From Jaapia argillacea MUCL 33604 (Eukaryota > Basidiomycota > Agaricomycetes > Jaapiales > Jaapiaceae): a stretch of 64,000 bases of DNA. The translations under genes were made by a program, and so were the position numbers. The notes below the pieces were generated by a model. It ran no database searches. It had not been told where the DNA came from and worked only from the letters and a program-made list of their open reading frames with translations. The DNA is taken from positions 32,541 through 96,540 of the forward strand of contig KL197762.1 in assembly GCA_000697665.1 (NCBI GenBank), given 5' to 3'. Positions 14,377 to 52,602 of the stretch are shown here, piece by piece (position 1 is the stretch's first letter; each line of letters starts with the position of its first letter).

Positions 14377-15327
14377 NNNNNNNNNNNNNNNNNNNNNNNN
14401 NNNNNNNNNNNNNNNNNNNNNNNNNNNNNNNNNNNNNNNNNNNNNNNNNNNNNNNNNNNNNNNNNNNNNNNNNNNNNNNNNNNNNNNNNNNNNNNNNNNN
14501 NNNNNNNNNNNNNNNNNNNNNNNNNNNNNNNNNNNNNNNNNNNNNNNNNNNNNNNNNNNNNNNNNNNNNNNNNNNNNNNNNNNNNNNNNNNNNNNNNNNN
14601 NNNNNNNNNNNNNNNNNNNNNNNNNNNNNNNNNNNNNNNNNNNNNNNNNNNNNNNNNNNNNNNNNNNNNNNNNNNNNNNNNNNNNNNNNNNNNNNNNNNN
14701 NNNNNNNNNNNNNNNNNNNNNNNNNNNNNNNNNNNNNNNNNNNNNNNNNNNNNNNNNNNNNNNNNNNNNNNNNNNNNNNNNNNNNNNNNNNNNNNNNNNN
14801 NNNNNNNNNNNNNNNNNNNNNNNNNNNNNNNNNNNNNNNNNNNNNNNNNNNNNNNNNNNNNNNNNNNNNNNNNNNNNNNNNNNNNNNNNNNNNNNNNNNN
14901 NNNNNNNNNNNNNNNNNNNNNNNNNNNNNNNNNNNNNNNNNNNNNNNNNNNNNNNNNNNNNNNNNNNNNNNNNNNNNNNNNNNNNNNNNNNNNNNNNNNN
15001 NNNNNNNNNNNNNNNNNNNNNNNNNNNNNNNNNNNNNNNNNNNNNNNNNNNNNNNNNNNNNNNNNNNNNNNNNNNNNNNNNNNNNNNNNNNNNNNNNNNN
15101 NNNNNNNNNNNNNNNNNNNNNNNNNNNNNNNNNNNNNNNNNNNNNNNNNNNNNNNNNNNNNNNNNNNNNNNNNNNNNNNNNNNNNNNNNNNNNNNNNNNN
15201 NNNNNNNNNNNNNNNNNNNNNNNNNNNNNNNNNNNNNNNNNNNNNNNNNNNNNNNNNNNNNNNNNNNNNNNNNNNNNNNNNNNNNNNNNNNNNNNNNNNN
15301 NNNNNNNNNNNNNNNNNNNNNNNNNNN
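14377..15327. other. Assembly gap (N)
   Basis: 951 undetermined bases. The gap lies among copies of repeat R, which probably prevented assembly. Confidence 0.99.
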
Positions 15328-16231: not shown

Positions 16232-18754
16232 TAGCTTACCAGGACCCCTCTCGCAAGCGTGCCGATTCAACTTTGACCCAGCCTTTCCATCATGCACCCA
16301 AACAGCACTATCCCAAGCCTGCAACCCCTTCAAATCTGGCTTCCCAGAGGCCAACGCCTCAAACAGCGTCATACCCTCAAGAGCCTTCGTTGATGTCTGG
16401 TTCTTTAACCACGTCGCATGGTTCACTGCTTCTCCCCAAAGCGACTTCGGCACCACACTATCATCAAGCATTGCTTGGACCTTCTCCATTAGGGTATGAT
16501 TCAAGCACTCTGCAATCCTGTTCTGTTCAGGCGTATCATGGACAGTAAGTTTGCGAATCATACCTGCAGCTTTGAGAAATGCTGAAAAATGATCACTCAG
16601 GTATTCCCCACCACGATTGGAGTGAAGAATTTTGATTTTGGTGTTGTGTTGGGTCTTGCACCAGGCCTTGTATTCTTTGTAGACATCAAAGACCTTGTCC
16701 TTGGTGTGAAGTAGGTAGAGTGAAGTGTAGCGTGTGCGATCATCGGTAAAGGTGACATAGCAGCAACATTTTCCCAATGTTGGTACCTTTGCTGGCCCTC
16801 AAACATCGGTATGTATCTCATCACCGAATCTCTCTGCTCCCGATCCCTGACGTTCTTTTGGAACAGATTTTCTCGTCGCCTTGGCCTTAACACATGGTTC
16901 GCAGAACACAGACTCAGCTGACGACTTATCAAGAGCAACTCCAGTCACAAAGCCCTTCTTGACAAGCTGTTTCATGATTGCAGGTGAGATGTGACCCATT
17001 CAGCAGTGCAACTCCATCATGCTGACCTGTTCCTCGGCAGCATTTGCAGATCCAGTACTCGGATCAACAGAATTGTGAATGACATGATACAATCCCTTCA
17101 CTGATCGAGGGATCTCGCCAACAGACTTGCCATTGGGACCTTTGATGGTACATCTCCCATCTGCAAAGGTCGTAGAGAAGCCGAGTTGGTCAAGCTGGCC
17201 AATCAAGACAAGGGTATAGCCAACTTCAGGAGAGTATAGCACCTTGGTAAGTTGTAACTGAGATGCACTGACACCGTTTGGGACTTCAAGGACTAACTTG
17301 CCCAATCCCACAGCATTGAAATTTTGCTTTTTTGCGGCGGTAAAGGGCTTTGGTGGTATTTCCACAAAGTTTTCAAAGTTGTCGCAATATGGGGAGATGT
17401 GACAAGTAGATCTGGAGTCATAAAGCTCCTTTTGAGGTATGTTGCGCATCTTGTCCCATGTGGTATCACCTAATGCAGCTGCTGTATCCACAGCATCCAG
17501 GCCTCCATCAATATCTGAGTCAACTTTGGTGTACAACAACGACGCTTCTGACCCAAATCCCATCTCCAAAGACCAATCACTGCCCACATCAAGACTGTCA
17601 TCTCCCACTTCCAAAAACAACACCTCATCATCATCATCCACATCACCAGCCTCACTCTCAGAGTCACTATCAGAGACGGATTGGATACTGGGCATTGAGT
17701 CATCTGACTGTGAATCCTCCTCAATATCAGAGTCAGAATCATAGTCCATGGCCCAAGCACCATTGTCATCTGAATTGGGTTCCTCAACGATATTCGCCAT
17801 GCCAGATTTGGCTTTTGCATCATCCTTGGGCTTCACCTTCAATGATTTCTTTGGGCAAGAGTCCTTAAAATGACCCTTCTCCCCACACTCCCGGCAAGCA
17901 CCCTTTGGCTTCGATTTATCACCACTCAAACCATCACCCTTCCCCTTCCACTTCCCCTTCCAAGGCTGGACAGACAATGCCTCATTGTTGTCAGCTTTCG
18001 CCTTTGAACGACTTGCTTGTTTGGCCTTGACACGATCAAATTCCTTGGATATCAGATTGATCAGAAAGTTGGGATCGATCTTCCCTGGAGCAGGGACAGG
18101 GGTAGAGGGACTCATAGCCAGTAGGATTTGGTATTGCTGTTGCACGATTGTGCGAGTGGCAGCAAGCTGGGCAGCAGTGAAGTCTGAGAGGTAGTCAGGT
18201 AAGCACTTGATGACAGTTGAGCACATATCCTCCTCACTGATATTGACACCCATACCAGACAAACAGCTGCGCTCTGCAACAAGCTTATCAAGGAAGGCCT
18301 GGACATCTGCATCCTTCCCACACTTGCTATCAAGGAACTGGGTGCGTGCGTTGGTCAATGCATACTCTCCCTTGCTTGTGAACTCGACACGAATAGCAGC
18401 CCATCAATCAGCAACTGTGACCTTGTCGCAGACCTTGATCAATGTGTGACTGTGAAGCTTCTGTGTAAGGAGGTACTTCGCTGTCGCTTCTGCCTTCTTC
18501 CATGCCGTGACCTCCACCTCCTGGGCTGCAGTAAGTGGAGTCGTTGCAAATGTCAGGATGGTGACTGATCCATCATAGTATCCCCAGAACCCCTTCACCT
18601 GAACCATGTCCATGAAGCGCTCAGAGAAGATGACCCAATTCATCCCATTCTCATCGAGCTTGGGGATGGTCGAGGGCAATGTATCAGAGGATTGTGAAGT
18701 TGACATCATAGGTGGTAGAGTGGGGTATGGCAATGTGTAGCAGGTAGAAACACT

Positions 18755-24346: not shown

Positions 24347-24359
24347 GGTTATGAGCCCC
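24347..24359 (+). promoter_or_regulatory. Primer-binding site of Copia-2 overlapping the gag start codon
   Basis: GGTTATGAGCCCC is the exact complement of GGGGCTCATAACC, the anticodon arm of initiator tRNA-Met. The ATG at 24351-24353 that opens the long gag frame lies inside this site (it pairs with the CAT anticodon). Confidence 0.7.
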
Positions 24360-27300
24360 ATGTTGGAAGATACCTTCACTTTGTCAGACTCAAAGAATCC
24401 ACTCTACTCAATGCTGAAGCTTACAGCAGATGGGTCTAACTGGCTTACATATAAGACCCAGTTCACGACTGCTGCTGATGCCTGCGGGATACTTGGTTAC
24501 TTCAACAGAACCACTTCTCGCCCTGTTGCTCCCACACCTGCTGGTGCTGCTGGTACCGCCACATCCGTGCCCAAGGCTGACCAGGAAGCTCTCAATGCTC
24601 ATGTTATAGCGTTGAAGGCTTGGGAGACTTTGGAGAAGAAGTCCTGCCAGCTGTTGATCAGCACAATTGGGAATGGACTCTTGATGAAGGTGCAGCACAA
24701 GCCTACTGTTGCTGAGATGTGGGCAACGGTGGTGAAGTTGTACAACAAGAAGACAGAGATGGTGGTTGTGGATACAGAGTTGCATATGAAGAACTTGAAG
24801 TGTGCTGATGATGGTGATGTGCGAAGCCACCTTGATGAGCTCCTATTGTTTCAGGAGAAGTTAGCTAATGCCAGGAAGGTGTCAGAGGACAAGGACTTCC
24901 ATACCATGATGCTTAACTCAATCCTCCAGTTCTACTGCAACTACACTGATGTTATCCTCAGCACAATCAACCTACTCTTGACTCCTGATGCTCTGAAGAC
25001 AGTGACGACTGAAGCTCTCATCCATCTTATCCTCCAGAAATTTGACAACCAGCATCTCAACTTGGCGAAGACGAAGAAGTCAAAGGATGCTGCCTACTTG
25101 GCCAGTTTGCAGAACATGAATGGTAAAGGTGGTCAGGGAGGGAAGAAGGGTTGTTATGTAGGCAATAGTGGTGGTGGTAACCAGAAATCATCATCCCTGA
25201 AGGAGTTTCTTTGTTGGAACTGCAATGGGCAGGGTCACTGCACTGATAAGTGTCCTAGTCCGAAGAAGGATGGCGGAGGTAGTGATGGTGGAAGTAGTGG
25301 CAGGAAAGTGAAGCTGAAGGAATCTGCAAATGTGTCAGCAACTATAGAGAACATAGGTGCTTGGGTGGCTATACCTGCAGATGGCTCTGACGATTTCAAA
25401 GAACTCCTGCCATTGGAACCAATCCCCCACCCAATCACCCTATGCTGTGTTGATTCTGATACTTTGTCACTCACTGATCCTGACACTTCGTCGTTCTTCA
25501 ATGTCACCTTGAATGGCACCCTGGATGATGGTTGGTTCACCAAGGGAGAGGACGTCGATGGTGATGATGATGGGATGCCTGCTTTGCAGTATGCAAGTGA
25601 CAGCAATGATGAGGATGATTGTATGCCAGGATTACTCAATGCCAGTGATGACGAGGGAGATGAAGATGGTGGAGAGGGAGAGGAAGATGTGGGCACTGCT
25701 GCTACTGCCACTGATGCTTCACCGCAGGTCCCAAAGGTTACTGAACTCTATGATTCAGGAGCCTCTCGCCACATGTCGCCATACTGTGATGAATTCATCA
25801 CCTTCTGCTAAAGTCATCAACACTGTTAAGACTTCGAAGATCAAGCTCTTGGATGTCTTATACACTCCCGACCTCAGTTTCACTCTTGTATTGGTTGGTC
25901 AGATTGATGATGCCGGTTTCTCCACCCTTTTTGAGAAAGGGAAGTGTACAATCTGGGATGGAGACAGAAACATTGTGGGCCAGATCCTCAAAGGCAATGG
26001 CTTATACCTTGTTGAGCACAATGCCACCATGGATTGTGCAAATTCTGTTGAGGTGGTTACCATCGACAAACTCCACTGTTGGATGGGACATATTGCTCCA
26101 GAGGCGGCGAAGCGCCTCATATCTGAGGGGCTTGTTACTAGTGTCAAACTTGAGCCTGGGTCAAGGGCTGTCTTCTGCGAGAGTTGCTTGTTTGTGAAGT
26201 CAAAGAGGAAGGCTGTCCCAAAGGAATGGCAGAGCAAGGGGCAAAGGAGTTTGGGGAGGAGATCTACTCAGATGTGTGGGGTCCTGCTCCTGTTGAAATA
26301 CTTGGCTGACGTTGTTACTACATCTCATTCACAGATGACAGTACTTGACACACTCACCTCTTCCTCCTCCACAACAAGAGTAATACATTTGATGCCTACA
26401 AGGAGTTTGAGGCTTGGGCCAAGACTTAGCGCAAGGCCAATATCACAACTCTTCACTCCAATCATGGCAGTGAGTACCTGAGCACTGAATTCATTCAGCA
26501 CCTCAAAGATCACGGAACTGAACACAAACTCACCATACACAACACTCCCAAAGAGAATGGTATTGCCAAGCACCTTAACGGCATCATTCTTGAGAAGGTT
26601 CGTACTATGTTGCATGCAAGTGGACTTCCTCAGTTCCTATGGAGGGAGGCTGCCATGCATGCAATCTGGTTGAAGAATTGCACAGTGATGAAAGCACTTG
26701 ATGGTGTTACGCCATTGGAAGCCTTATTCAGAGAGAAGCTGGACTTGTCAAAGTTGGCTGTGTGGGGTTGTCAAGCCTGGGTGCATGACAGCACTAGGTC
26801 AAAACTTGATGGATGTGCCAAAGAGGGCTGTTGGGTGGGTTTTGACATGCAGAGCAAGGGCCATCAAATTTAGTGGCCTGAAAACCAATCCATCAGTGTT
26901 GAGCAGAGCGTGAGGTTCAATGAGAGTGAGGTTCTCATACCTGAGATGGTGCTGCTCGAGGGGGAGAGTGGGAAGGACACTGATCTACATGCATCTGGTC
27001 CTGTTGAACCAGGTGATGTGGCCAAAACCACCCCATCCTCACCTAAGACTGCTCCAATCTCACCTGATATTGATCCTCCAGTTGATGTTGCTTCTGCTCA
27101 GCTGACAGGTGGTCGTGGACAACGCATTTGCAAGCTGTCGGCTTACATTTGTCAAATCCAGGAGGCACTTGGACATACCAGTGTCAAGCCTGCTGACCCC
27201 TTCCTCACACCAGGAATTCCTACTCCATCTGTCCCCCAGTTGCACTCTGAACCGATCATTGTCCCAGCAGAGACCAATGAGGCCCTGATGGTTGTGGAGA

Positions 27301-37100: not shown

Positions 37101-38400
37101 AACCACCCTCACTCTGCCAAACTCAATACGCCACCCTGTAAGATCAACACTGTCATCAACTTCATTTGCCACCTCATCCTTCTACTTATGGAAGGAATTT
37201 TTATTTCCATCATTCTCTGTACCTATGACCATGGAATTCTGATCCACATTCACAGCTGATTGCCCCAATTGGTAATTAGCACCAAGTGCACCACGTACCA
37301 ACCAATTGCTGTACACAAGATCCACTTCCAGATCAACCTAGAAGGAAACATAGGGTATCGCCTCAGCAACCTATATAACAAGGAGGATGTCTTACATCCC
37401 TGGCATACCACACCTACTCCTCCACTGCCAACAACACCCTTGCCAGGAATACCTAACCCCCTTACTTTGCAACCCTGTTTGTACTCACTCATTATCATCA
37501 AGAGCCACTCCCTTTCCCCTGCTCAACCAGCTACTGCACCATGCACTCTGTTGCCAGCACTGCCCCCATCCACTGGTTGGGACCCTCTTAACCTTCTTCA
37601 TGAATGTCTCAAACAACTCCACAACTGCAACAACTCCAACTATCCCTCCACTCATGGTAATACCACTGACTACAAGAACTTCAAGACCACTGACGAACAT
37701 AAATAGAACATGCTCCCACCTCCACCCATCACAACCAGCATGACCACCCTCTTAGAACTCATCAATAACCTCACCCTCAACACCCCTTCCCCCAAAACCA
37801 CCTCTGCTACACCCGCTGACACACCCTCAACCCTGTTCACATTCAACCCCAACCCATCCAGCACATTGGATATCCCTCCACCTCCTGCACCAAACCCCTT
37901 CCAAGGGAGCAAGGGGATACAGTCAGTTAATTAGGACATTAGGGACAATGTTGGTCTTAGCAGAGAGGGTGGTGTTGTGACTCTGTATACCTGGTTCATT
38001 TTTTGTTATCTTATCTTATCTTGGACATCTTATCTCATCTTATTGCACCCCATCTTGGGCTCATCCTATTTATATCCCTCTGTGCTATTATTAACTCACC
38101 TTCTCATACTATACCCTATTCAGTGGGTTACCAACTTCTCAGGTATTCCACCTTGTTCTCTACCTTTCCATCACCTTCTCCTACTTTCCTTGGGCACTAT
38201 TCTTAGTCCCTCCCATACCCTTCTACAATGTTCCACCCTTTGGGCCCCAGTATATAAGGTGCTGAATGTTGGTCAGGTAGGTTGTGACTGGGTTTTGTAT
38301 GATCCTTGGACAGGTGTCCAAGAAAGCTGGGAGGTTCAGGCTATATCCACAGAGACAGAGGACAAGTCTAGGGCAAGCTCAATACCAAGTAAGGTAGAGT
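34199..38400 (+). mobile_element. Chromoviral Ty3/Gypsy retrotransposon, old 5'-truncated copy (Gypsy-1)
   Basis: Starts within pol just upstream of the reverse transcriptase ([16 protein letters not shown] near 34495; [14 protein letters not shown] near 34627; the catalytic YLDNIL region near 34828), then RNase H (near 35250-35500), integrase HHCC region (near 35630-35750; CVTCQSIKPN), integrase core (QDFITGIPE near 35836), a weak chromodomain region (near 36700-36850), an additional 3' frame (37140-37934) and the start of a 3' LTR at 37974. It is badly broken, with well over a dozen breaks. CpG sites are almost absent compared with Gypsy-3, so it is the oldest of the three chromoviral copies. 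Confidence 0.9.
37974..38400 (+). repeat. Gypsy-1 3' LTR (3' boundary uncertain)
   Basis: Begins TGTTGTGACTCTG right after the polypurine tract AGAGAGGGTGG. It contains several CTTATC (GATA-type) repeats at 38008-38045 and TATATAAGG at 38251-38259. The 3' end was not located. Confidence 0.65.
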
Positions 38401-39288: not shown

Positions 39289-39848
39289 TGTTATGAGCAC
39301 CTTAGCATTAGTGTAAGGCAGCGAATAAGGCTTGTAAGTCTTTCAGGTTTTCTTGCTAACGAGTACTCAGGCTACAATCTTGAGGTAGTAGAGGATGACG
39401 AGGATGAGCGAACCAGTTGAAGGATACAACTAAAGCGCTGTATTGTTCAAGTGGACAAGCTAGTGAATACAGAGTAGCTAGGTGTCCTTATATACTATGG
39501 GAACAATGGGATGTCGAACAATGGACTATGGACAATGATGAACGAGACAATGTCTAGAGACAATGGTGAGTGAGTTAAGGTACAGGACAATGACACTGAA
39601 CAATGGACACCAAACAATGAGGACAGAACAATGAGATAGAGGACAATGACAAGGCTGTGTGTGACAAGTCATTGTGTGCTAATAATAGTACGAGGTCTGA
39701 GATAAGATAATGCCTAGGATAAGATAAGATAAGATAAGATGAAACGATGCTAAGTATCATAGACAAGGGAAATGATACGAAGTGAAGGAAGTCCAATAAA
39801 AGAATGAAAAACATAAGAAAATATACAAGTCTGGACATGTTCACAACA
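39289..39848 (-). repeat. Gypsy-2 3' LTR
   Basis: 560 bp; on the minus strand it starts TGTTGTGAACATG and ends CTCATAACA. It contains ten ACAATG hexamers (plus-strand reading) and a GATAAG array at 39719-39740. Confidence 0.9.
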
Positions 39849-39899
39849 CCACCCCCTCTCTATGACCAACATTGTCCCTAATGTCCTATTCAACCTGTA

Positions 39900-40735
39900 T
39901 TTACTTATCTCCCCATCCATAGTCGGGTCCATCTGGTTGGAAGGGGTTTGGCAAAGGAGGCGGGGGAATGTCTAATGTAGCAGATGGGTTAGGTTCAAAT
40001 GTGAATGGGGTATCAGGTGTGTCGGTGGGTGTAGGGGATGTGTCCTGGGGAAGGTTGTCACTCAGGATGAGGTTGTTGATGAGCTCTAGGAGGTTGCTCA
40101 TGTTGGGCGCGATGGGGGAAGGTGGGAGTGGGCTCTACTCAAGTTCATCAGCGGTCTCGAAGTTCTCATAATTGGGGGTATTACCACAAGTGGGGGGGTG
40201 GTCAGGGTTGTGACAGCTGTGGAGTCGTTCGAGACGCTTGCGAAGAAGGTTGAGGGGGTCCCAGCCAGTAGACGGAGGTGGTGATGGGGAGGTGGTGTGT
40301 GGTGCACTGGTTGGTTGAGCAGGAGAGCGGGGGCAACTCTCAATGACAACAGGAGAGTATTAATCAAATGGTGAAGTGGGGGGGCTGGGTGTTCCTGGCA
40401 GGGGTGTTGTTGGCGGTGGAGGAGTGGGTGTGGTCTGCCAGGGTTGTAAGACGTTCTCTTCATTATATAGGTGGCCGAGACGATATCCCATGTTTCCTTC
40501 CAGATCGAACTGGAAATGGATGTCATGTACCGCAATCGGTTGGTATGTGGCGCGCGTGGTACTGATTACCAATTGGAGTAGCTGGGTGTGAACATGGATG
40601 AGGATCCCACGGGCGTAGGTGCAGAGGATGATGAAGAGATGGATCCCTTCCATCAGTAGCAGGATGATGTGACAAATGAAGTTGATGATGGTATTGATTT
40701 CGCTGGCTGGCATGCTGAGTTGGGTAGGGCACAAG
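39900..40735 (-). other. Extra 3' reading frame of Gypsy-2 (type A), unknown function
   Basis: Lies between the chromodomain and the 3' LTR. Recognisable pieces are HDIHFQFDLEGNMGYRLGHL (near 40500), a Pro/Thr-rich tract, GWDPLNLLRKRLERL (near 40255), LLELINNL (near 40090) and TLDIPPPPLPNPFQ (near 39950). The same pieces occur in the same order in Gypsy-1 (37300-37920), so it is a real part of the element family. No known domain. It is broken in this copy. Confidence 0.6.
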
Positions 40736-41985
40736 TGGTCAATCGAGTGGTTGCCGATGCTGCTGGAATATTCATTGAGGAATGTATTTTTGCAGCCTAG
40801 CCAGATGTGCCTTTATTTGTCCTGGGTTTGGGTGTTTTGTCAGCATGTGGAGGTAATTCTCCCTTGTTGTCCTTTCTACTTCTTGATTGATCCAGAAATG
40901 TGTCCATTGTTCTTTGGGTATTTTGAGTAGTGCGAGTGCGATTTGCAATGGTTTCGGCACCTTTGGATTCTTCTGATGGAACGATTCGACCAATTTGGCT
41001 GAGTTACGTAGATTGCCGATGTCTTCCCAAGTATTTTCTGAATCAGGATAACCCTTCCATTTGATGAGGTATTTGATTTTCTTCGTCTTGCCAATGAACT
41101 TTGATTTGACCACCTCTTCTACTTCGTATTCCTCTTCGCCTTCTACTAGGTCGGGAGGCAGCTGTGGGAAGTTGACTCCATATTCCTCAGTTTCTCAATA
41201 TGGTGTGAGTAATCCTGCGTGGAATACTGGGTGGATTCTCCATTTCTTTGGTAGTGTCAACTTGTAGGCACCGGATCCAATGATCGCTTCGATTGGAAAG
41301 GGTCCATGTCGTTTGAGAGATAGTTTGGCACTGGGGTATTCCGTTTTGACGTTCTTTCCTTCTAGCCAAACTTTGTCCCCTACTGTGAAGTTTGGTCCTT
41401 TAACTCCGTAGGTGTCATGTTGCTTCTTCATTGCTTCAGCTGCGATACGTAGGCAGGCTTCTGCTTCTGGTCGAGCCTTCTTTAATTCTTCTAGGCGTTG
41501 AGCTGCCATTGGTATGTCTGGTACCGATCTGAACGATCCGGAGGTTTTGGCGCAATAGCCGTGCATGAGTTCAAATGGTGTCTGCTTGGTGGTGGAGTGG
41601 ATTCGTGTATTGTGGGTTAATTCTGCTGTGTAAAGTAGTGATGGCCAATTGTTTTGGGCGTGGTTGCAGTAGGCTTGGAAGTAAATTTCCAGTTCCCAGT
41701 TTACTATCTCTGTGGCTCCATCTGTTTCTGGATGAAATCCTGTGCTAAGTGTTGATTTGATGTCAAGTTGTTCTAGAATGGCTCGGAACACTTGTGACAC
41801 GAATTGCGGTCCTCCATCTGATATGATCTTATCAGGCAATCCGTAACATCTGATCTGAATGGTCCTTCCATTAGGATTTTGGCTGTTCCGTCAGCATTGA
41901 TAGTTTTATTGCAGGGTGTGGCGACAATGGTTTTGGTATATCGGTCTGTTATGACGTGGATCACATCATAACCATCAGCTTCCGG

Positions 41986-43813
41986 TGTGGGGAACCCAAT
42001 CCGCCTACGAACGGAATCGCGCTATCCTACTAGTCCGACTGTGTCTCCATCGGGTCGAGCAGACAACATCCCCTCTCTTCGGATCGAGTTGAACTCACCA
42101 GTTTCATACGATTTCGGACCCGACATCCCATTCCCTCACTCCTGACAACCACACGGCACTCAGTCCCATCTCAAACGAAACTCGACTCTCAGTAATTCGC
42201 TCCCTCGTCATTCCGAACTCGGAAATATCCAAACGTCCGAAGGCGCACCCAATTCTCCTAACGATTCAATCGTATTCTGGATGACATCGGAATTTCCTAT
42301 CCGCTCCAACTCCGAGATTCCTCCCGAGACCAGATGTCCACCATTTCGCCTCCACGTTGCTCAGTATCGGGATTTCCGATGTTCTACGATTAGGACTGTA
42401 TTCGACCCGACGATACGATTCCGATGCACCCGATGCAAACCTTCATAGGAGTCCGGAACATCGGAATTCGACTCAAGACTAGTTGGTCACCATCTCGCCT
42501 CCACGTCATTCAGTATCGGGAATTCCGACGTTATCAAGTTAGGACCGTATTCGTCNNNNNNNNNNNNNNNNNNNNNNNNNNNNNNNNNNNNNNNNNNNNN
42601 NNNNNNNNNNNNNNNNNNNNNNNNNNNNNNNNNNNNNNNNNNNNNNNNNNNNNNNNNNNNNNNNNNNNNNNNNNNNNNNNNNNNNNNNNNNNNNNNNNNN
42701 NNNNNNNNNNNNNNNNNNNNNNNNNNNNNNNNNNNNNNNNNNNNNNNNNNNNNNNNNNNNNNNNNNNNNNNNNNNNNNNNNNNNNNNNNNNNNNNNNNNN
42801 NNNNNNNNNNNNNNNNNNNNNNNNNNNNNNNNNNNNNNNNNNNNNNNNNNNNNNNNNNNNNNNNNNNNNNNNNNNNNNNNNNNNNNNNNNNNNNNNNNNN
42901 NNNNNNNNNNNNNNNNNNNNNNNNNNNNNNNNNNNNNNNNNNNNNNNNNNNNNNNNNNNNNNNNNNNNNNNNNNNNNNNNNNNNNNNNNNNNNNNNNNNN
43001 NNNNNNNNNNNNNNNNNNNNNNNNNNNNNNNNNNNNNNNNNNNNNNNNNNNNNNNNNNNNNNNNNNNNNNNNNNNNNNNNNNNNNNNNNNNNNNNNNNNN
43101 NNNNNNNNNNNNNNNNNNNNNNNNNNNNNNNNNNNNNNNNNNNNNNNNNNNNNNNNNNNNNNNNNNNNNNNNNNNNNNNNNNNNNNNNNNNNNNNNNNNN
43201 NNNNNNNNNNNNNNNNNNNNNNNNNNNNNNNNNNNNNNNNNNNNNNNNNNNNNNNNNNNNNNNNNNNNNNNNNNNNNNNNNNNNNNNNNNNNNNNNNNNN
43301 NNNNNNNNNNNNNNNNNNNNNNNNNNNNNNNNNNCTCGGAATCTAACTGTCTCGGGCTTCGGACTCCTTTACCTTCGGGATTTCCGATCTTATTTCGTTC
43401 CGATTAGTGTTTCCCTTTCGTTCCTATCCCGACGTATTAGTTTCAGTTCGTTTCAATTCGATTTCTTCGTTTTCCTTTCGTTTTAGTTTGTTTTCGTCAC
43501 ACGTCTTACAGTTAGTTTCGTCGTATCGCGTCCTTAGATTTCCGAGCAGTCCGACCCGATTCCCGACGTTTCGGACACCTGCACAAGTACTCGCCGTAGC
43601 GCACCCTCCCCTCGGGATTACTCCTCCACTATCGCTGTGTCGAGTCGAGTTTCCCTTTGTGTTCCGATTACTGGACACATCATTTCCGGACCCTACCTAG
43701 TCTGTCCTACACATTCCCGCATCCCGAAACACTGATCCCTCCCGTTCTTCGATTTCCATTGAAGACGAACAACTACCCCTCACTCGGAACTTACGAACCC
43801 CGAGTACCCCACA
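41986..43813. mobile_element. CpG-rich LTR-like element inserted in the Gypsy-2 integrase region
   Basis: Ends TGTGGGG...CCCCACA (7-bp inverted termini, TG...CA), flanked by CCGG at 41982-41985 and 43814-43817. Removing it and one CCGG restores an uninterrupted match to Gypsy-3. About 1.83 kb including 779 N. It has no coding sequence, is rich in CG dinucleotides, and carries internal tandem repeats of about 150 bp (TCGCCTCCACG near 42345 and 42494). It could be a long solo LTR or a non-autonomous element. The right end recurs, decayed, at 10785-11288. Confidence 0.8.
42556..43334. other. Assembly gap (N)
   Basis: 779 undetermined bases inside the CpG-rich inserted element, next to its tandem repeats. 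Confidence 0.99.
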
Positions 43814-46800
43814 CCGGTAGTCCTGTGATAAAGTCTTGAGTTACAATCTGCCAGGGGCATGTTGGGATTTCTGTTGGGTGTAGCGGTTCCTGAGTGGGGT
43901 TTGTGTTTGGTTTGGTCGATTGGCAAATGGTGCATCCATCCACGTAATTCCGTACAAAGATAGACATTCCTGGCCACCAATAGTCCCTTTGTACTATTTC
44001 CAACATCTTATATCTCCTGGGATGCCCCATCAGGACTGGGTCGTGACAGGATTTGACTACCTTGCATCGTAGTTCCATGTCTTTGGGAACATAGATCTTT
44101 CCTCAGTAGAGAATCAATCCATCTTCTGGGTTCCCTTCTTCTAATCCCTTCTTTAGAGATCGTGGTCCCTGTTTCTTTATGATGTCCAGGGTGTTTGCTA
44201 CCGATTCATCAAGTTCCGTATGGTTCTAAATTTCCTCTTTGAGTCCTAAATCGCCTTCTAGTGTTGTGACTGCTGCCTTGATGGCAATTCGAACTTGTTG
44301 TGCCAGTATGGGGGAGTGGGTTGAAGTGTTTCCTTGACCTGTGAGGTTGATTGTTTTTGCAAAAAGATGGGGTCCTAAAAGTATTCTGTCCAAGTTGTCT
44401 GCATCCACCCCCTCCTTATGGTCTTGTCATCTCGAAAGACCATCAGATTTGTTTGTCTTCCCTGGTTTGTGGATTAAATTGAAGTTGAATCTCTCGTCAG
44501 GAATTGGGCCCATTGAGCCTGTCTTTGGCTTAGTTTTTGTGCATTTCGGAAGTACTCGAGGTTCTTGTGATCGGTGTATATCTGAATGGGATGTGTACAT
44601 CCTCCAGGTAGTGTCGCCATGCTTCCAATGCTCAGATTATTGCTAGCAATTCCTTATCGTAGATGTCATAGTTTCGTTCAGCGTCGGTTAATGATTTGGA
44701 TAGGTAAGCGACTGGTTGCCATTTGCCGTCGGATTCCTTTTGTGTTAATACGGCTCCCATTGCATAATCAGATGCGTCGCATTCTATCTGGAATTCTTTG
44801 GTGGTGTCCAGCATGACTAGTGTCGGGGATGACGTGAATGCCTTTTTTAAGGTGTCAAAGGATTCTTGACATTTGGTTGTCCATTCCCATTCGTGATCCT
44901 TCCTGGTTAGTTCGAATAATGGTTTCGTGATTTTCGAGAAGTCCTTGATGAAATGTCGATAGAAGTTGCAGAATCCCAGGAATGATTGGACTTCTTTGAC
45001 CTTCTTCGGTTCTGGCCATTCTGTGATTCCTGCCACCGTGATGGGGTCCATTTCAACTAGATTGTGGGATACAATCAACCCTAGGTATTTGACTTTTGGT
45101 ACTTCAAATGTGCATTTTCCTGGTTTCAAATATAGATCATTGTCCTGTAGGATCTTCATGATGCAGTGCAGGATTTGTCGGTGATGCGTGAGGTCTTTGG
45201 TGAATATCAGGATGTTGTTGAGATATACAACGACGTGGCCTTCGTCGATGAGTTCCTTGAATAGTTCGTTCATCATGGTCTGGAACATTGCTGGGGAATT
45301 TGTGAGGCTGAAGAACATAACTCTGGGTTCGAATAATCCTTGATTGGTTTTGAATGCGGCCTTCCATTCATCCCCTTCTTTGATCCTGACGTTATTGTAT
45401 CCCCATCTTAGATCTAACTTGGAGTACACTCGTATCGAAGAGGGTGGGTCGATGACTTTGATTGTGAGATGGGGGATATTTGTGTGTGTCGGGATAGATG
45501 GGTTTGGATTTACGGAAGCGCCATGATTCTTCGTTCCTGGCTTGTTCTTGAAGTAAGTCTTCTCTGATTGCGGCGGCTTTGAATTCGGTCAATGTATCTG
45601 GTTGCATTGGCAGATGTACAAGAGTTTTGAGGATGTCCCAATTTAATCCCTGTTTGAAATATTCTTTCAGGGCTTGGTCGTCGAATTGGGTGTGTCAAGC
45701 AAGATCTTCGAATTTGGCAATGTATTGGTTGACAGTGGCTGGTCCCTGTTGGAGATTCTGAATCTGCATCCTTGCCATTGCTCCTTTGTCTAATTCGCTG
45801 AACAACTTTTTCAAGGCTGTGGTGAACTCTTTCCAGTCGTTCTTTATGGTTAAGGCTGTAGCATCCTGATTGTCTATATCCTCCAGTAATTTCATCACCC
45901 AGGACCCAGCTGTTCCTTCCTTCATGAAGGATAAGCTATAGGCAACCTTTGACCATTTGTCTGGGAAGTCTCCTGTATTGGCACTGATTACAAGTTTGAC
46001 TTCTGATAAGAATTTATCGGTTTTACAGCGATCTCCAGTAAAAGGGGTTGGTGGGGCAAGTTTAGGTCCTTTGAGTGTTTGAGTAGCTATGATGATAGGT
46101 GGCGGTGCTGGAACAGGACCAATTGAAATGGGTCAGCTGGTGCAATGAATGGATGTTTAGTTCCAATAGATCCGTCGTCTTGAAAATTGATCTGATCGTT
46201 TTCCCTCTTTTTGGAAATGGTGTCGATAGATTTGATGTGTTTACTGGACTTGTGGGAATGTATTTAATGGGTCCCCTAGTATGTGGTCAGGATGGGGTGC
46301 GTGATAGAAGTCGCGAGGCTGAGTTTGATTGTATCTGAGGAGTCCTTGAAGTTGCTGGTCTTGAATACGGATTATGATAGGGCAAAACTTTCTGATGGTG
46401 ACATGGGTGGTTCTGCTGGTGGAGAGGCAGTTTCTGAGTGCAGGAGTGCATTTGGTACAGGTTCTGGTTCTGTGGTGGTGGCTGATTGCAAGTATTTGTG
46501 AACGTTTGCAAGAATGTCTACCGAGTCTGGTTGTAGTTCGGCGAATACATCAGGGATTTCTGATAGGTCTGTTATAGATAGCGAGTATAGAATGATTAGA
46601 GTTTGTGTTGGCTAATGTGTTGGCTAATTAATCTACAGTAGTGAATCTTGGGACCAATATATCTTGGGATAGGCTCTCTGTGGTCGGGGCTGTAGTTTTT
46701 CAGCTGGTGGGTAAAGTTTATAGGCTAGGAGGTTGAGTGCGGTGGCGATTGTGGCTTTGATCAAAGCCAGTTTTCTTCTGGTTGTTGCGTTCATCATACT

Positions 46801-47052
46801 TCTGTTGGATTTCTCGTAGGTACCGATCGAGTCACGATGTGAAGTCAATGAGTATGTTACTGAGGGATCGTAGAAGGGAGATGACAAACTGGATGTATAT
46901 AGGGTGTGTGGGTGGTATTCTGTGCGCACTGATCAAGTTGTAAGGCTGAAGCTTGCAAAGTCGATGAGTATGTTATTGGATGGTGTATTGATGGATGATG
47001 AACTTGCAGATCCTGACTGCATCGGTATCGTAGAGTGAGTAGGGTTGGTAAG

Positions 47053-47062
47053 AGCTTGTCCA
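47053..47062 (-). promoter_or_regulatory. Self-priming primer-binding site of Gypsy-2
   Basis: Minus strand TGGACAAGCT lies two bases inside the 5' LTR end. It is the exact complement of AGCTTGTCCA, found in all three chromoviral LTRs about 33 bases downstream of the TATA box, that is, at the expected transcript start. No tRNA 3' end complementarity is evident. Confidence 0.6.
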
Positions 47063-47064
47063 AG

Positions 47065-47643
47065 TGTTATAAGTGCCTTAGTGTTAGCGTAAGGTAGCGA
47101 ATAAGGCTTGTAAGTCTTTCAGGTATTCTTGCTAACAAGTACTCAGGCTACAATCTTGAGGCAGTAGAGGATGACAAGGATGAGCAAACCAGTTGAAGGA
47201 TACAACTAAAGTGCTGTATTGTTCAAGTGGACAAGCTAGCGAATACAGAGTAGCTAGGTGTCCTTATATACTATGGGAACAATGGAATATCAAACAATGT
47301 ACTATGGACAATGACGAACGAGACAATGTCTAGAGACAATGGTGAGTGAGTTAAGGTTCAGGACAATGATACTGAACAATGGATACAGAACAATGAAGAC
47401 GGAACAATGGGACAGAGGACAATGGGACAGAGGACAATGACGAGGCTGTGTGTGACGAGTCATTGTGCGCTAATGATAGTACGAGATCGGAGATAAGATA
47501 ATACCCGGATAAGATAAGATAAGATAAGATAAGATGAAATGAGGCTAAGTATCATAGACAAGGGAAATGATACAAAGCGAAGGAAGTCCAATAAAAGAAT
47601 GAAAAAGATAAGAAAATATACAAGCCTAGACGTGTTCACAACA
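47065..47643 (-). repeat. Gypsy-2 5' LTR
   Basis: 579 bp, collinear with 39289-39848. It has an extra tandem copy of a 15-bp unit (GGGACAGAGGACAAT), eleven ACAATG hexamers and a GATAAG array near 47512-47536. Confidence 0.9.
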
Positions 47644-50277
47644 ACGACCTATACCTGAAACCAGAAAAATGCACATTCGAAGTACCAAAAATCGAATACC
47701 TAGGGTTGATTGTATCCCAGAACCTAGTCGAAATGGACCCAATCAAGGTGGCAGGAATCACAGAATGGCTGGAACCGAAGAAGGTCAAGGAAGTTCAATC
47801 ATTCCTAGGATTCTGCAACTTCTATCAATGTTTCATCAAGGACTTCTTGAAAACCGCGAAACCATTATTCAAACTAACCAAGAAAGATCACAAATGGGAA
47901 TGGACGACCAAATGTCAAGAGTCCTTCGACACCTTAAAAAAGGCATTCACTTCATCCCCGACACTAGTCATGCCGGACACCACCAGAGAATTCCAGATTG
48001 AATGCAATGCATCTGATTACGCGACGGGAGCCGTATTAACACAAAAGGAATCCAATGGCAAATGGCACCCAGTCGCTTACCTATCCAAATCATTAACCGA
48101 CGCTGAACGAAACTATGACAACTATGATAAGGAATTGCTAGCAATAATCCAAGCATTAGAAGCATGGCGACACTACCTGGAAGGATGTACACATCCCATC
48201 CAGATATACACCGATCACAAGAACCTTGAATACTTCCGAAATGCGCAAAAACTAAGCTGAAGACAAGCTCAATGGGCTCAATTCCTGATGAGATTCAACT
48301 TCAATTTAATCCACAAACCGGGGAAGACGAACAAATCTGACGGTCTTTCGAGACGACAAGACCATAAGGAGGGGGTGGATACAGACAATTCAGACAGAAT
48401 ACTTTTAGGACCCCATCTTTTCGCAAAAACAATCAACCTCACAGGTCGAGGAAACACTTCAACCCACTCCCCCATACTGGCATGACAGGTTCAAATCACC
48501 ATCAAGACAGCAGTCACAACACTAGAAGGCGATTTAGGACTCAAAGAGGAAATTCAGAACCATACAGAACTAGATGAATTGGTAGCAAATGCCCTGGACA
48601 TCATAAAGAAGCAAGGACCACAATCCCTGAAGAAGGGATTAGAAGAATGGAATCAGGAAGATGGATTAATTCTTTACTGAGGAAAGATCTACGTTCCCAA
48701 AGACACGGAACTACGACACAAAGTAGTCAAATCCTGTCATGACCCTGTCTTGATGGGACATCCCGGGAGATATAAAACGTTGGAAATAGTACAAAGGGAC
48801 TACTGGTGGCCGGGAATGTCTATCTTTGTACAGAATTACGTGGATGGATGCGCCATTTGCCAATCAACCAAGCCAAACACAAACCCCACTCAGGAACCAC
48901 TACACCCAGCAGAAATCCCAACATGCCCCTGGCAAATCATAACTCAAGACTTTATCACAGGACTGCCAGAAGCAGATGGTTACGACACAATCCATGTCAT
49001 AACAGACCGGTATACCAAAACCATTGTCGCCACACCCTGCAACAAAACTATCGATGTCGATGGAACAGCCAAAATTCTGATGGAGGGACCATTCAGACGT
49101 TATGGACTGCCTGACAAGATCATATCAGATCAAGGACTGCAATTTGTGTCACAAGTGTTCCGAGCCATTCTAGAAAGACTTGACATCAAATCAGCACTCA
49201 GCACAGGATTCCACCCAGAAACAGACGGAGCTACAGAAGTAATAAACCGGGAATTGGAAATTTATCTCCGAGCCTACTGCAACCGTGCCCAAAACAACTG
49301 GCCATCGCTACTCTACACGGCAGAATTAACCCACAATACACAAATCCACTCCACCACCAAACAGACACCATTCAAACTCATGCACAGCTATCGCGCCAAA
49401 ACCTCCGGATCATTCAGATCGGTACCAGACATACCAATGGCAGATCAACGTCTAGAAGAGTTAAAGAAGGCTCGACAAGAAGCAGAAGCCTGCCTATGTA
49501 TTGCGGCCGAAGCAATGAAGAAGCAACATGACACCTACGGAATTACAGGACCACACTTTGCAGTAGGGGACAAAGTTTGGCTAGAAGGAAAGAATGTCAA
49601 AACGGAATACCCCAGTGCCAAATTATCTCCCAAATGACATGGACCCTTCCCAGTCAAGGCTGTCATTGGATCCGGCGCCTACAAACTGACACTACCAAAG
49701 AAATGGAGAATCCACCCAGTATTCCACGCAAGATTACTCACACCATATCGAGAAACCGAGGAATATGGAGTCAACTTCCCACAGCTGCCTCCCGACCTAG
49801 TAGAAGGCGAAGAGGAATACGAAGTAGAAGAGGTGGTCAAATCAAAGTTCGTTGGCAAGACGAAGAAAATCAAATACCTCATCAAATGGAAGGGCTATCC
49901 CAATTCAGAAAACACCTGGGAAGACATTGGCGATCTACACAACTCAGCCAAACTGGTTAAGGAATCCCATCAGAAGAACCCAAAGGCACCGAAACCCTTG
50001 CAAATCGCACTCACACTACTCCAGGTGCCTGAAGAGCAATTGATACGCTTCTGGATCAACAGGGAAGTGGAACAGACCACAAGGGAGAACTACCTACATA
50101 TCCCCGAAGTACTATCAAAACGTCCGAACCCAGAACGTATAAAAGCACACCTAGCAAGGCTGCAAAACTCCATTCCTCAGCAAATACTCCGACAGCACCA
50201 GCAACCACCCAGTCAAAAAACTCCAACTCGACCATCACTTATCTCCATCTCCCAACCAAACATCCCCCAGTATCACT

Positions 50278-51573
50278 ATGCTCGCAGTCACCGACGCCCT
50301 CTTCCTGTTCAACCAAATCACCCCTCGCACCCACTTCTTTATCAGCCCCCGCTACACCCAGAATGAACACGGCGACATAGTTGACCGTGCCGACACCATT
50401 GAACGGGAATGTGGTCTTGTCGCTGACGTACTACGCTGAGCAGGGTATATGCAAGCTTCGCTATGGACCCTCTGAAACAACCCACTTCAGATCGAGGCCC
50501 TTACCGTTGCCTTACACCAACCCACGTTCAGCAACCTCCTCAATGCGGCAGAAGGAGTGATATTGTACCCAGTCCCTGTCGTCACCATTCGCTACAACCC
50601 CAAAGACGACCTCCAGGCCAACGCAGATATCCTCCCTCCTCTCACTCAATTCAGTCTCGCCAAACTCCCAACGGCTGAGATCAATCGCCCCCACGTCAAC
50701 TCCGACACTGACATCGCATCCAGCGCATCCTACCACCCCGACTCACCCACGTACTCTGTCCACAAATCAGACTACCAACTGATCTCCCCCATCCTGTCCA
50801 CGCTGGGAGACACACACTTCGAATCCACTACCACCTGCACCGAGGAACCACCCTCCCCTCCCTCCTATGAGGAACACCCACCTGCATCACCTGCGGACGC
50901 CCCCAATCCTCGTCTACCAATGCCTCATCCATTCGCACTCACGGGTACATATGCTTTAGTTCAGAGCGAAATGTCAGAATACCCATCATTACCGTCACGA
51001 GTGTCTATACCCGAATCGGGTCTACCAACCCCACCAACTGAAACATGACCCCCCACACCAGTCGACACCTGGGACCAAGGTTGGTCACAAGAAGTCATAG
51101 ACGAATGGAACTGTACCCACAACGACGCATGGGACAACAATGCCATCATCGACTCAGAAGACATTTGGCCACAGACTAATAAAGAGAAACATCGCCGTCG
51201 ACCCAAATGCTGGGGATGTGGGATCTGGGGACACACCATTTACTGGTGTAAAAAGACCAACCATCGTAAGCATCCTCATCAATCGTCACCCACCACTACT
51301 CATCACAAACCAGCCAGCAACCCCTCGCTTCCACCTTTACACTGGTCAACCCCTACAGTCCCATTCACCCACTGCCTTGGAGTCGAGAATCGACTCTTCG
51401 GCTTCATCATGGGACAAATATCGTCGTCAGCAACCGAGCTCCGGACAGCCGAGTGGACCCACTCCTACTGGCTCAAACAGGGAAAATGTCTGGCTGGATC
51501 AAACGATCTCTTGGGCCCTCAACTCCCCACCTGGTACCCTTCTGAACCTACCCCTGTCGCCCCTAAGGCTTAA
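50278..51573 (+). other. Extra 3' reading frame of Gypsy-3 (type B) with CCHC zinc knuckle
   Basis: One reading frame of about 430 codons starts at ATG 50278 (MLAVTDALFLFNQITPRTHF), overlapping the end of the chromodomain frame, and runs to TAA at about 51573, with a few breaks. The middle is Pro/Ser/Thr-rich; CWGCGIWGHTIYWC (51208-51249) is a canonical Cx2Cx4Hx4C knuckle next to a basic stretch (KEKHRRRPK). A knuckle normally belongs to gag, not downstream of integrase. It shares no visible sequence with the type A frame of Gypsy-1 and Gypsy-2. Confidence 0.65.
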
Positions 51574-51614
51574 CTAGGACATTAGGGACAATGTCAGTTA
51601 TAGAGAGGGGGTGG

Positions 51615-52174
51615 TGTTGTGAACACATCTGGGCTTGTATATTTTCTTATCTTTTTCATTCTTTTATCGGACTTCCTTTGCTTTGTATCATTTCCCTTGT
51701 CTATGATACTTAGCCTCATTTCATCTTGTCTTATCTTATCTGATCCTGGGTATTATCTTATCTCCAATCTCATACTATTATTAGCGCACAATGACTCGTC
51801 ACATGCAGCCTCGTCATTGTCCTTTGCCCCATTGTTCTGGCTTCATTGTTCTGTGTCCATTGTTCAGTATCATTGTCCTGAACCTTAACTCACTCACCAT
51901 TGTCTCTAGACATTGTCTCATTCATCATTGTCTGTGGTACATTGTTCGATATTCCATTGTTCCTGTAGTATATAAGGACAACTAGCTACTCTGTATTCGC
52001 TAGCTTGTCCACTTGAACAATACAGCGCTTTAGTTGTATCCTTCAACCGGTTTGCTCATCCTTGCCATCCTCTACCACCTCAAGATCGTAGCCTGAGTAC
52101 TTGTTAGCAAGAATACCCGAAAGACTTACAAGCCTTATTCGCTACCTTACGCTAATGCTAAGGCGCTCATAACA
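51615..52174 (+). repeat. Gypsy-3 3' LTR
   Basis: 560 bp from TGTTGTGAACAC to CGCTCATAACA. It has CTTATC (GATA) repeats at about 51730-51765, about ten CATTGT hexamers, TATATAAGG at 51969-51977 and the predicted transcript start AGCTTGTCCA at 52002-52011. Confidence 0.9.
51969..52011 (+). promoter_or_regulatory. Core promoter of the chromoviral LTR
   Basis: TATATAAGG at 51969 and the conserved AGCTTGTCCA at 52002, 33 bases later. The same pair is present in the two Gypsy-2 LTRs on the other strand. Confidence 0.55.
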
Positions 52175-52602
52175 GTCTCCAGACATTGTTGATTGGATCA
52201 ACAATTGAAGGTTAGGTTGGTATCCTCAATCTATCAACATCTCTCTGCATATTATTATCCTGTTCTGCTTTCAGACTGGCAACCAGCTGTAATGTGTTGC
52301 TGCTATGATATACTACAATGGCTTGGGAGTTGGATGTCATTTAGAGGGCTGGCAAGCCTCAGAGCCAGTCCTGAGGTATGAGACCCTGCAGGGAACCCCA
52401 CTATCGAATACACAGAGACCATGTCCTCAGGTGCTACTCTTGTAGCTCCCTGAGATACTCAATAGCTAGGCATGGCTGCTTACACAGCCATCCTGCGTTG
52501 ACAAGAAGTCCACAACACGACCAAAGATCGCTCTTGATTTTGAAGTAGATAGAGTCTTGTAACTTGACCCTCTCATAGAGGTCGAGTTCTGAGTAGTGCT
52601 GG
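52175..52602. other. Spacer between two LTR elements; no gene seen
   Basis: About 430 bp with no open frame of note and no recognised repeat. Confidence 0.5.

Follow-up and report, generated by a model that had tools for sequence, protein, structure and literature searches.

Retrotransposons are usually described as gag plus pol, and the locus studied here raised the question of what a third long reading frame is doing past the chromodomain of pol and ahead of the 3' LTR of a chromovirus. In the window, that is, the whole 64-kb stretch of DNA that was analysed, this frame (ORF3) occupies positions 50278 to 51573 of the plus strand. It comprises 432 codons, with the ATG at 50278 and the TAA at 51571. 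Relative to pol it is shifted to the +1 frame, and three in-frame TGA codons (50437, 50473 and 51046) interrupt it. The first-pass annotation had described a broken frame of about 430 codons carrying a canonical Cx2Cx4Hx4C motif, and both were found in place, the translation of positions 51208 to 51249 (plus strand) being the CCHC zinc knuckle CWGCGIWGHTIYWC. The corresponding DNA pattern occurs three times in the 64 kb, compared to 0.17 times expected from shuffles; the remaining two occurrences fall inside long frames at 24348 to 25811 (plus strand) and 17000 to 18403 (minus strand), which look like gag of other retroelements.

ORF3 starts about 310 bases 3' of the chromodomain match and ends about 40 bases 5' of the 3' LTR. 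Its carrier, delimited by blastn of the window against itself and by Pfam, is a 5'-truncated chromovirus copy (47646 to 52175, plus strand) extending from the RT region to the 3' LTR. An integrase with a C-terminal chromodomain, as expected of a chromovirus, was recognised on the plus strand: the H2C2 and rve domains (PF17921 and PF00665, the latter with 39.9 bits against a cut-off of 32.6) span positions 48681 to 49637, and the chromodomain (PF00385, 49.5 bits, cut-off 25.1) spans 49818 to 49964. The 3' LTR (TGTTGTG...ATAACA) was located at 51614 to 52175 of the same strand by the self-comparison. Since the copy starts in the RT region, its own gag is absent, and it retains the 3' LTR only; an LTR at each end was found in a minus-strand sister copy next to it. 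The start of the plus copy coincides exactly with the outer edge of the 5' LTR of this sister (junction 47645/47646), and no matching 5-base duplication was seen there by eye, so that the junction looks like a rearrangement. The window contains two N runs, at 14377 to 15327 and 42556 to 43334, the latter within an insertion inside the minus copy.

The sister copy (39289 to 47643, minus strand, from the self-comparison by blastn) is bounded by LTRs at 47643-47065 and 39888-39289 that are 89.5% identical to each other. Its pol lies at 45138-43816 and 41985-40747 (91% and 87% identical to the plus copy, respectively), on either side of the insertion at 43815-41986, which includes the N run. Thus, the two copies are 87 to 91% identical in pol and about 90% identical in the LTR. 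The match between them ends at position 50208 of the plus copy and resumes at 51575, positions 50209 to 51574 being missing from the sister. The slot of ORF3 is occupied there by another gene (39901 to 40713, minus strand), with an ATG at 40713, a TAA at 40362, a TAG at 40137 and its end at 39901. A second remnant of this gene was recognised by sequence match at 37131 to 37466 (plus strand), 3' of another truncated pol, and the genome contains 45 matches to it. The N-terminal part of its product is strongly hydrophobic (up to 2.4 over 19 residues), and the protein may be membrane-active. This strong hydrophobicity was the only feature shared with a retroviral Env: no Pfam match above the cut-off indicated Env or fusion protein homology, and the corresponding protein of a distant chromovirus group had no PDB match.

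In all four copies of the hydrophobic gene that were examined (window 39901-40713, minus strand; window 36.8-38.0 kb, plus strand; L047; and L048, 1664-2743), the gene ends at a TAG followed by a further open stretch in the same frame, of 74 to 77 codons in three copies and 151 codons in a distant element. Readthrough or reinitiation at this TAG is possible.

All copies analysed come from one genome (43.7 Mb, 95 contigs). A search of this genome, as the first-pass annotation had proposed, revealed the CCHC frame in many copies and in the same slot of three pol subfamilies, A, B and C. Counting fragments, so that one copy may give several pieces, there were 12 matches to the middle part of ORF3 (20 candidates scored), 34 to its CCHC part (42 scored), 64 to ORF3 of subfamily B, and 40 to that of subfamily C (66 scored). 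The complete relatives (L013 and L018 to L021) consist of a gag with its own knuckle, pol and a third frame, which measures, between stops, 481 codons in L013, 515 in L018, 509 in L019 and 490 in each of L020 and L021. In subfamily C, the frame of L033 has 491 codons and the knuckle CWNCNGFGHKKKDC. Two sampled elements of the distant group (integrase 35 to 36% identical) had a chromodomain above the cut-off and no CCHC frame 3' of it; in a third one, L038, an N run of 973 bases follows the chromodomain. In decayed copies, TGA was by eye the commonest in-frame stop, as expected from C-to-T changes at CGA codons, which looks like CpG or RIP-like decay.

In a profile comparison, the ORF3 versions of subfamilies A and B aligned as homologues across 392 columns (23% identity, 99.5% probability). 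The similarity between B and C was confined to the surroundings of the knuckle (91% probability) and that between A and C was weak (33%), so that homology is claimed for A and B only. The knuckle family PF00098 (cut-off 20.8 bits) was matched by subfamily C with 21.1 bits, while B reached 13.2 and 13.8 bits, and neither A nor the window piece gave a match; the knuckle of the L013 gag itself also fell narrowly under this cut-off (20.4 bits). Outside the knuckle, no Pfam match above cut-off was obtained for ORF3, and a single scan of viral contigs with the L018 ORF3 as the query yielded no relatives.

To assess selection, the codons of every copy were aligned to a single relative in which the frame is open, and dN/dS was calculated by the Nei-Gojobori method. 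The median dN/dS was 0.26 in subfamily A (range, 0.13 to 0.40; 10 copies) and 0.24 in subfamily B (range, 0.16 to 0.45; 11 copies), with values below 1 in 45 of 45 and 55 of 55 pairs, respectively, although the pairs are non-independent and dS is near 0.9. The integrase of the same subfamilies gave medians of 0.08 (A, 21 pairs) and 0.10 (B, 45 pairs). When the same ORF3 alignments were read in the shifted frames, the medians rose to 0.89 and 1.35 in A and to 0.94 and 1.46 in B. A coding pattern was also apparent in subfamily C, in which the third-position rate was 2.37 times the first-position rate (9 copies). The three in-frame stops of the window copy would suit a functionless frame, either decayed or open by chance, but purifying selection in all 100 pairs of diverged A and B copies, the check that the earlier annotation had proposed, and the fact that diverged copies are still open leave that explanation a negligible chance. 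Since those copies show dN/dS values below 1, compared to 0.89 to 1.46 in the shifted frames, the window frame is more than a chance opening.

ORF3 is thus a separate reading frame under selection, which begins with an ATG of its own and is out of register with pol, and its recurrence in three subfamilies under purifying selection bears out the accessory protein proposed for the 3' end of the element. Position -3 of the start codon was an A in 15 of 20 aligned copies. The positions of AG dinucleotides 5' of the ATG were inconstant by eye across the aligned copies, and no shared splice acceptor emerged from them. Translation from this start is predicted, and it could rely on leaky scanning, on reinitiation or on splicing of the message. 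By eye, the product would comprise an N-terminal part of about 110 residues, a long linker rich in proline and serine, the knuckle amid basic residues and a tryptophan-rich C-terminal segment. Most likely, ORF3 yields a separate accessory protein, predicted to bind nucleic acids; such binding is plausible from the knuckle, and the protein might act on the RNA or cDNA of the element beside the nucleocapsid of gag.

Two other readings of ORF3 were weighed against a separate gene. It might extend Pol at its C terminus through programmed frameshifting or readthrough: ORF3 was +1 to pol in those A and B copies that were read, where it either overlaps the pol end or directly adjoins it, and most aligned copies keep the junction DNA. 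However, the frame relation is different in subfamily C, with pol of L033 in frame 2 and ORF3 in frame 1, and a single common frameshift is for this reason unlikely; in addition, the pol stop of L018 lies about 70 bases 5' of the ORF3 ATG, and the junction is deleted in L014. We consider this reading unlikely as a whole. The annotation had also offered a captured gag-like module, and a duplicated or captured nucleocapsid would agree with the canonical CCHC motif, with its basic flanks and with the weak matches between lentiviral nucleocapsid and the knuckle of subfamily B (best phmmer E value, 0.0002; subfamily A ORF3 gave no phmmer match). Nevertheless, the complete relatives possess an ordinary gag with a CCHC of its own (CFYCHKPGHFSNQC in L013 and CFYCRKPRHFS-type in L018 to L021), and the likeness between ORF3 and gag was restricted to the knuckle: hhalign of the ORF3 profiles against the gag of the elements themselves aligned this motif only, with a probability of at most 2%, although gag entered as single sequences, which makes the test weaker. 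Pfam recognised gag (Retrotrans_gag in L013, 45.6 bits, cut-off 24.1), whereas ORF3 outside the knuckle matched no gag family above the cut-off. The capture of gag was therefore unsupported, and we regard it as very unlikely.

The distribution of the two slot genes was examined by tabulating 103 of 126 integrase rows and scoring the downstream slot as CCHC, hydrophobic or neither. Group A (at least 81% identity) included 21 rows, of which 8 were CCHC, 11 hydrophobic and 2 neither; the 34 rows of group B (69 to 77%) were divided into 25, 6 and 3, respectively. In the 24 rows of group C (58 to 68%), 20 had a C-type and 1 a B-type CCHC gene, 1 the hydrophobic gene and 2 neither. None of the 103 tabulated rows carried both genes on the 3' side. 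The 23 rows first omitted comprised distant rows, two of which were almost full length, along with fragments and second halves; in 22 of them, 7 CCHC and 4 hydrophobic genes were found within 4 kb downstream and 1 hydrophobic gene upstream, with 10 rows showing neither and none both, and in the remaining one (C17:410879) neither gene matched nearby on its strand. The frame is not unique to the window copy, a possibility that the first-pass annotation had held against its own proposal. The absence from sister elements, which the annotation had likewise named as speaking against it, held in part: 11 of the 21 closest integrase rows lack ORF3, its place being taken by another conserved gene.

The slot therefore holds either ORF3 or an unrelated hydrophobic gene that is also selected (median dN/dS, 0.22; range, 0.06 to 0.60; 190 pairs of 20 sequences; 0.81 and 1.63 in the shifted frames). 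From their mutual exclusion, it might be guessed that both genes do equivalent jobs. Of the 24 tabulated rows of the distant group, 18 had the hydrophobic gene approximately 5 to 7 kb upstream of the integrase, and none had it downstream. One such element was read, in which an LTR stretch 99% identical to its 3' partner (297 bases) is followed by a hydrophobic frame of 208 codons, a TAG, 151 codons in frame and then a frame that we take for gag by position alone, given that it had no Pfam match.

An integrase tree of 26 copies (16 CCHC and 10 hydrophobic; L017 was dropped, and four loci without a usable integrase were left out) required 5 changes of the slot label, 4 of them forced by supported branches, and none of 200 bootstrap trees explained the labels with one change. 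The divergence of the genes themselves was then compared in 7 A and 2 B elements carrying the hydrophobic gene. Between A and B, its median dS was 0.85, versus 1.73 for the integrase, and it was lower in 14 of 14 pairs. Within A, the medians of both agreed (0.52 and 0.55; 11 of 21 pairs), and in the sole B-B pair the hydrophobic gene had diverged more than the integrase. A tree built from the hydrophobic gene did not separate A from B, although its supported branches force one change only. The simplest reading is an exchange between subfamilies after their split, which suggests that the elements trade accessory genes with one another. Modules could be swapped by template switching between co-packaged RNAs, which would account for breaks in the conserved flanks. 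Two old parallel lineages of slot types without exchange would instead fit some clustering of the labels on the tree (8 and 11 of 500 shuffles as low) and the agreement of module and integrase divergence within A. That history is quite unlikely in view of the at least 4 changes forced by supported branches, the lesser divergence of the hydrophobic gene in all A-B pairs, which involve only two B carriers, and the break of homology in the window exactly at the module edges. Altogether, we are fairly confident that ORF3 is a genuine accessory gene of a fungal chromovirus lineage, situated in an exchangeable slot that is flanked by the chromodomain-bearing end of pol and the 3' LTR.

The part of ORF3 located 3' of the knuckle (51256 to 51577, plus strand) showed a further peculiarity, as its +1 frame is also open (51101 to 51577) and conserved. 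Past the knuckle, the third-position rate dropped from 0.46 to 0.21 in A and from 0.44 to 0.33 in B, and the ratio of third to first positions dropped as well, in A from 1.69 to 0.94 and in B from 1.77 to 1.05; no block permutation reached the drop (0 of 5,000 in each subfamily), figures that are optimistic because the region was picked after inspection. When A and B were compared past the knuckle, the ORF3 frame gave 96% probability and 26% identity, and the +1 frame gave 95% and 37%, versus 12% probability for the +2 frame. Four control windows located further upstream gave at most 4.9% for the +1 frame, with one window reaching 30% for the +2 frame. The +1 score of 47.8 was attained by none of 300 synonymous shuffles (mean, 27.9; standard deviation, 4.9; maximum, 40.8) and by none of 300 column permutations (maximum, 39.3), and the +1 stop was at the same position in 11 of 11 B copies. 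Stop avoidance alone was weak, 2 to 26% of the synonymous shuffles of seven copies being equally stop-free, and the +1 frame did not outperform that of ORF3 in every 3' window of A (codons 360 to 400: 0.68 against 0.49). No sign of overlap was found in ORF3 of subfamily C, with its third/first ratio of 2.37.

These data point to the +1 frame 3' of the knuckle as probably coding too. The synonymous rate could also be lowered, without any second frame, by an RNA element acting in cis close to the 3' LTR, and such an element would fit both the strengthening of the effect toward the 3' end in A and the low third-position rate of B just past the +1 stop (0.329, there with an ordinary ratio of 1.68). 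We hold this alternative to be somewhat doubtful, since A and B are alike in the +1 frame and unlike in the +2 frame, the +1 scores of the control windows are low, neither the synonymous shuffles nor the column permutations attain the observed score, and the +1 stop has a single position in the B copies. A comparable overlap was considered in the gag linker of subfamily B, where some copies (such as L019, 495-1646, and L020, 1340-2422) have an open +1 frame of 361 to 384 codons that overlaps gag in its N-terminal half. Only 0.5 to 2.4% of synonymous shuffles were as low in stops (four copies), and 13 of 5,000 block permutations had as low a third/first ratio, but this overlap is not claimed, as the third-position rate there (0.308) was level with that in the capsid part (0.312) and the A-B similarity in the +1 frame was weak (6% probability).

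Taking these results together, we lean slightly towards a joint reading in which the end of pol would serve as a cargo dock for two unrelated, mutually exclusive genes that have been swapped again and again, both from element to element and across subfamilies, the membrane-type gene being found also in a distant chromovirus group, with the dock in front of gag, and the zinc-knuckle gene containing a second gene in the +1 frame past the knuckle. If true, it would reveal retrotransposons with virus-like accessory and overlapping genes, and the overlap, if true, would show coding frames that overlap in an LTR retrotransposon of a fungus. An exchangeable selected gene beside pol, together with a close pair of copies in one window that differ in exactly the slot gene, constitutes a natural experiment on the role of such genes and on the way in which retroelements acquire viral-type genes.

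As for known systems, neither slot exchange nor a fungal chromovirus with a CCHC ORF3 was described in the portions available of the open-access literature, and those of PMC2774666 and PMC5348765 contained nothing closer than the cases that follow. A 2010 survey of chromodomain elements in fungi includes, in the legend of its Figure 3, an additional ORF with no function assigned, together with CCHC motifs (PMC2864245); the available text of that survey does not name the element, location or nature of this ORF, nor does it describe selection, a knuckle in the extra ORF or exchange. The Athila-type elements of plants have, as here, an ORF besides gag and pol, described as Env-like in the same source (PMC2864245); they are not chromodomain elements. 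A further likeness, judged by description, is to the LTR retrotransposons of bdelloid rotifers, which possess a varied ORF3 after pol, of types common to unlike retroelements (Rodriguez et al. 2017, PMC5408684). Both systems have an extra gene of several types after pol, and one rotifer type, of 220 to 230 amino acids, has two hydrophobic stretches (PMC5408684). The rotifer types named there are env-like, esterase and exonuclease, and the authors found no chromodomain in the rotifer lineages (PMC5408684), whereas the Jaapia elements have one and encode a zinc-knuckle protein. Here, the swap is seen between copies 87 to 91% identical in pol, and the hydrophobic gene also shifts its position, being 5' of gag in some elements and 3' of pol in others.
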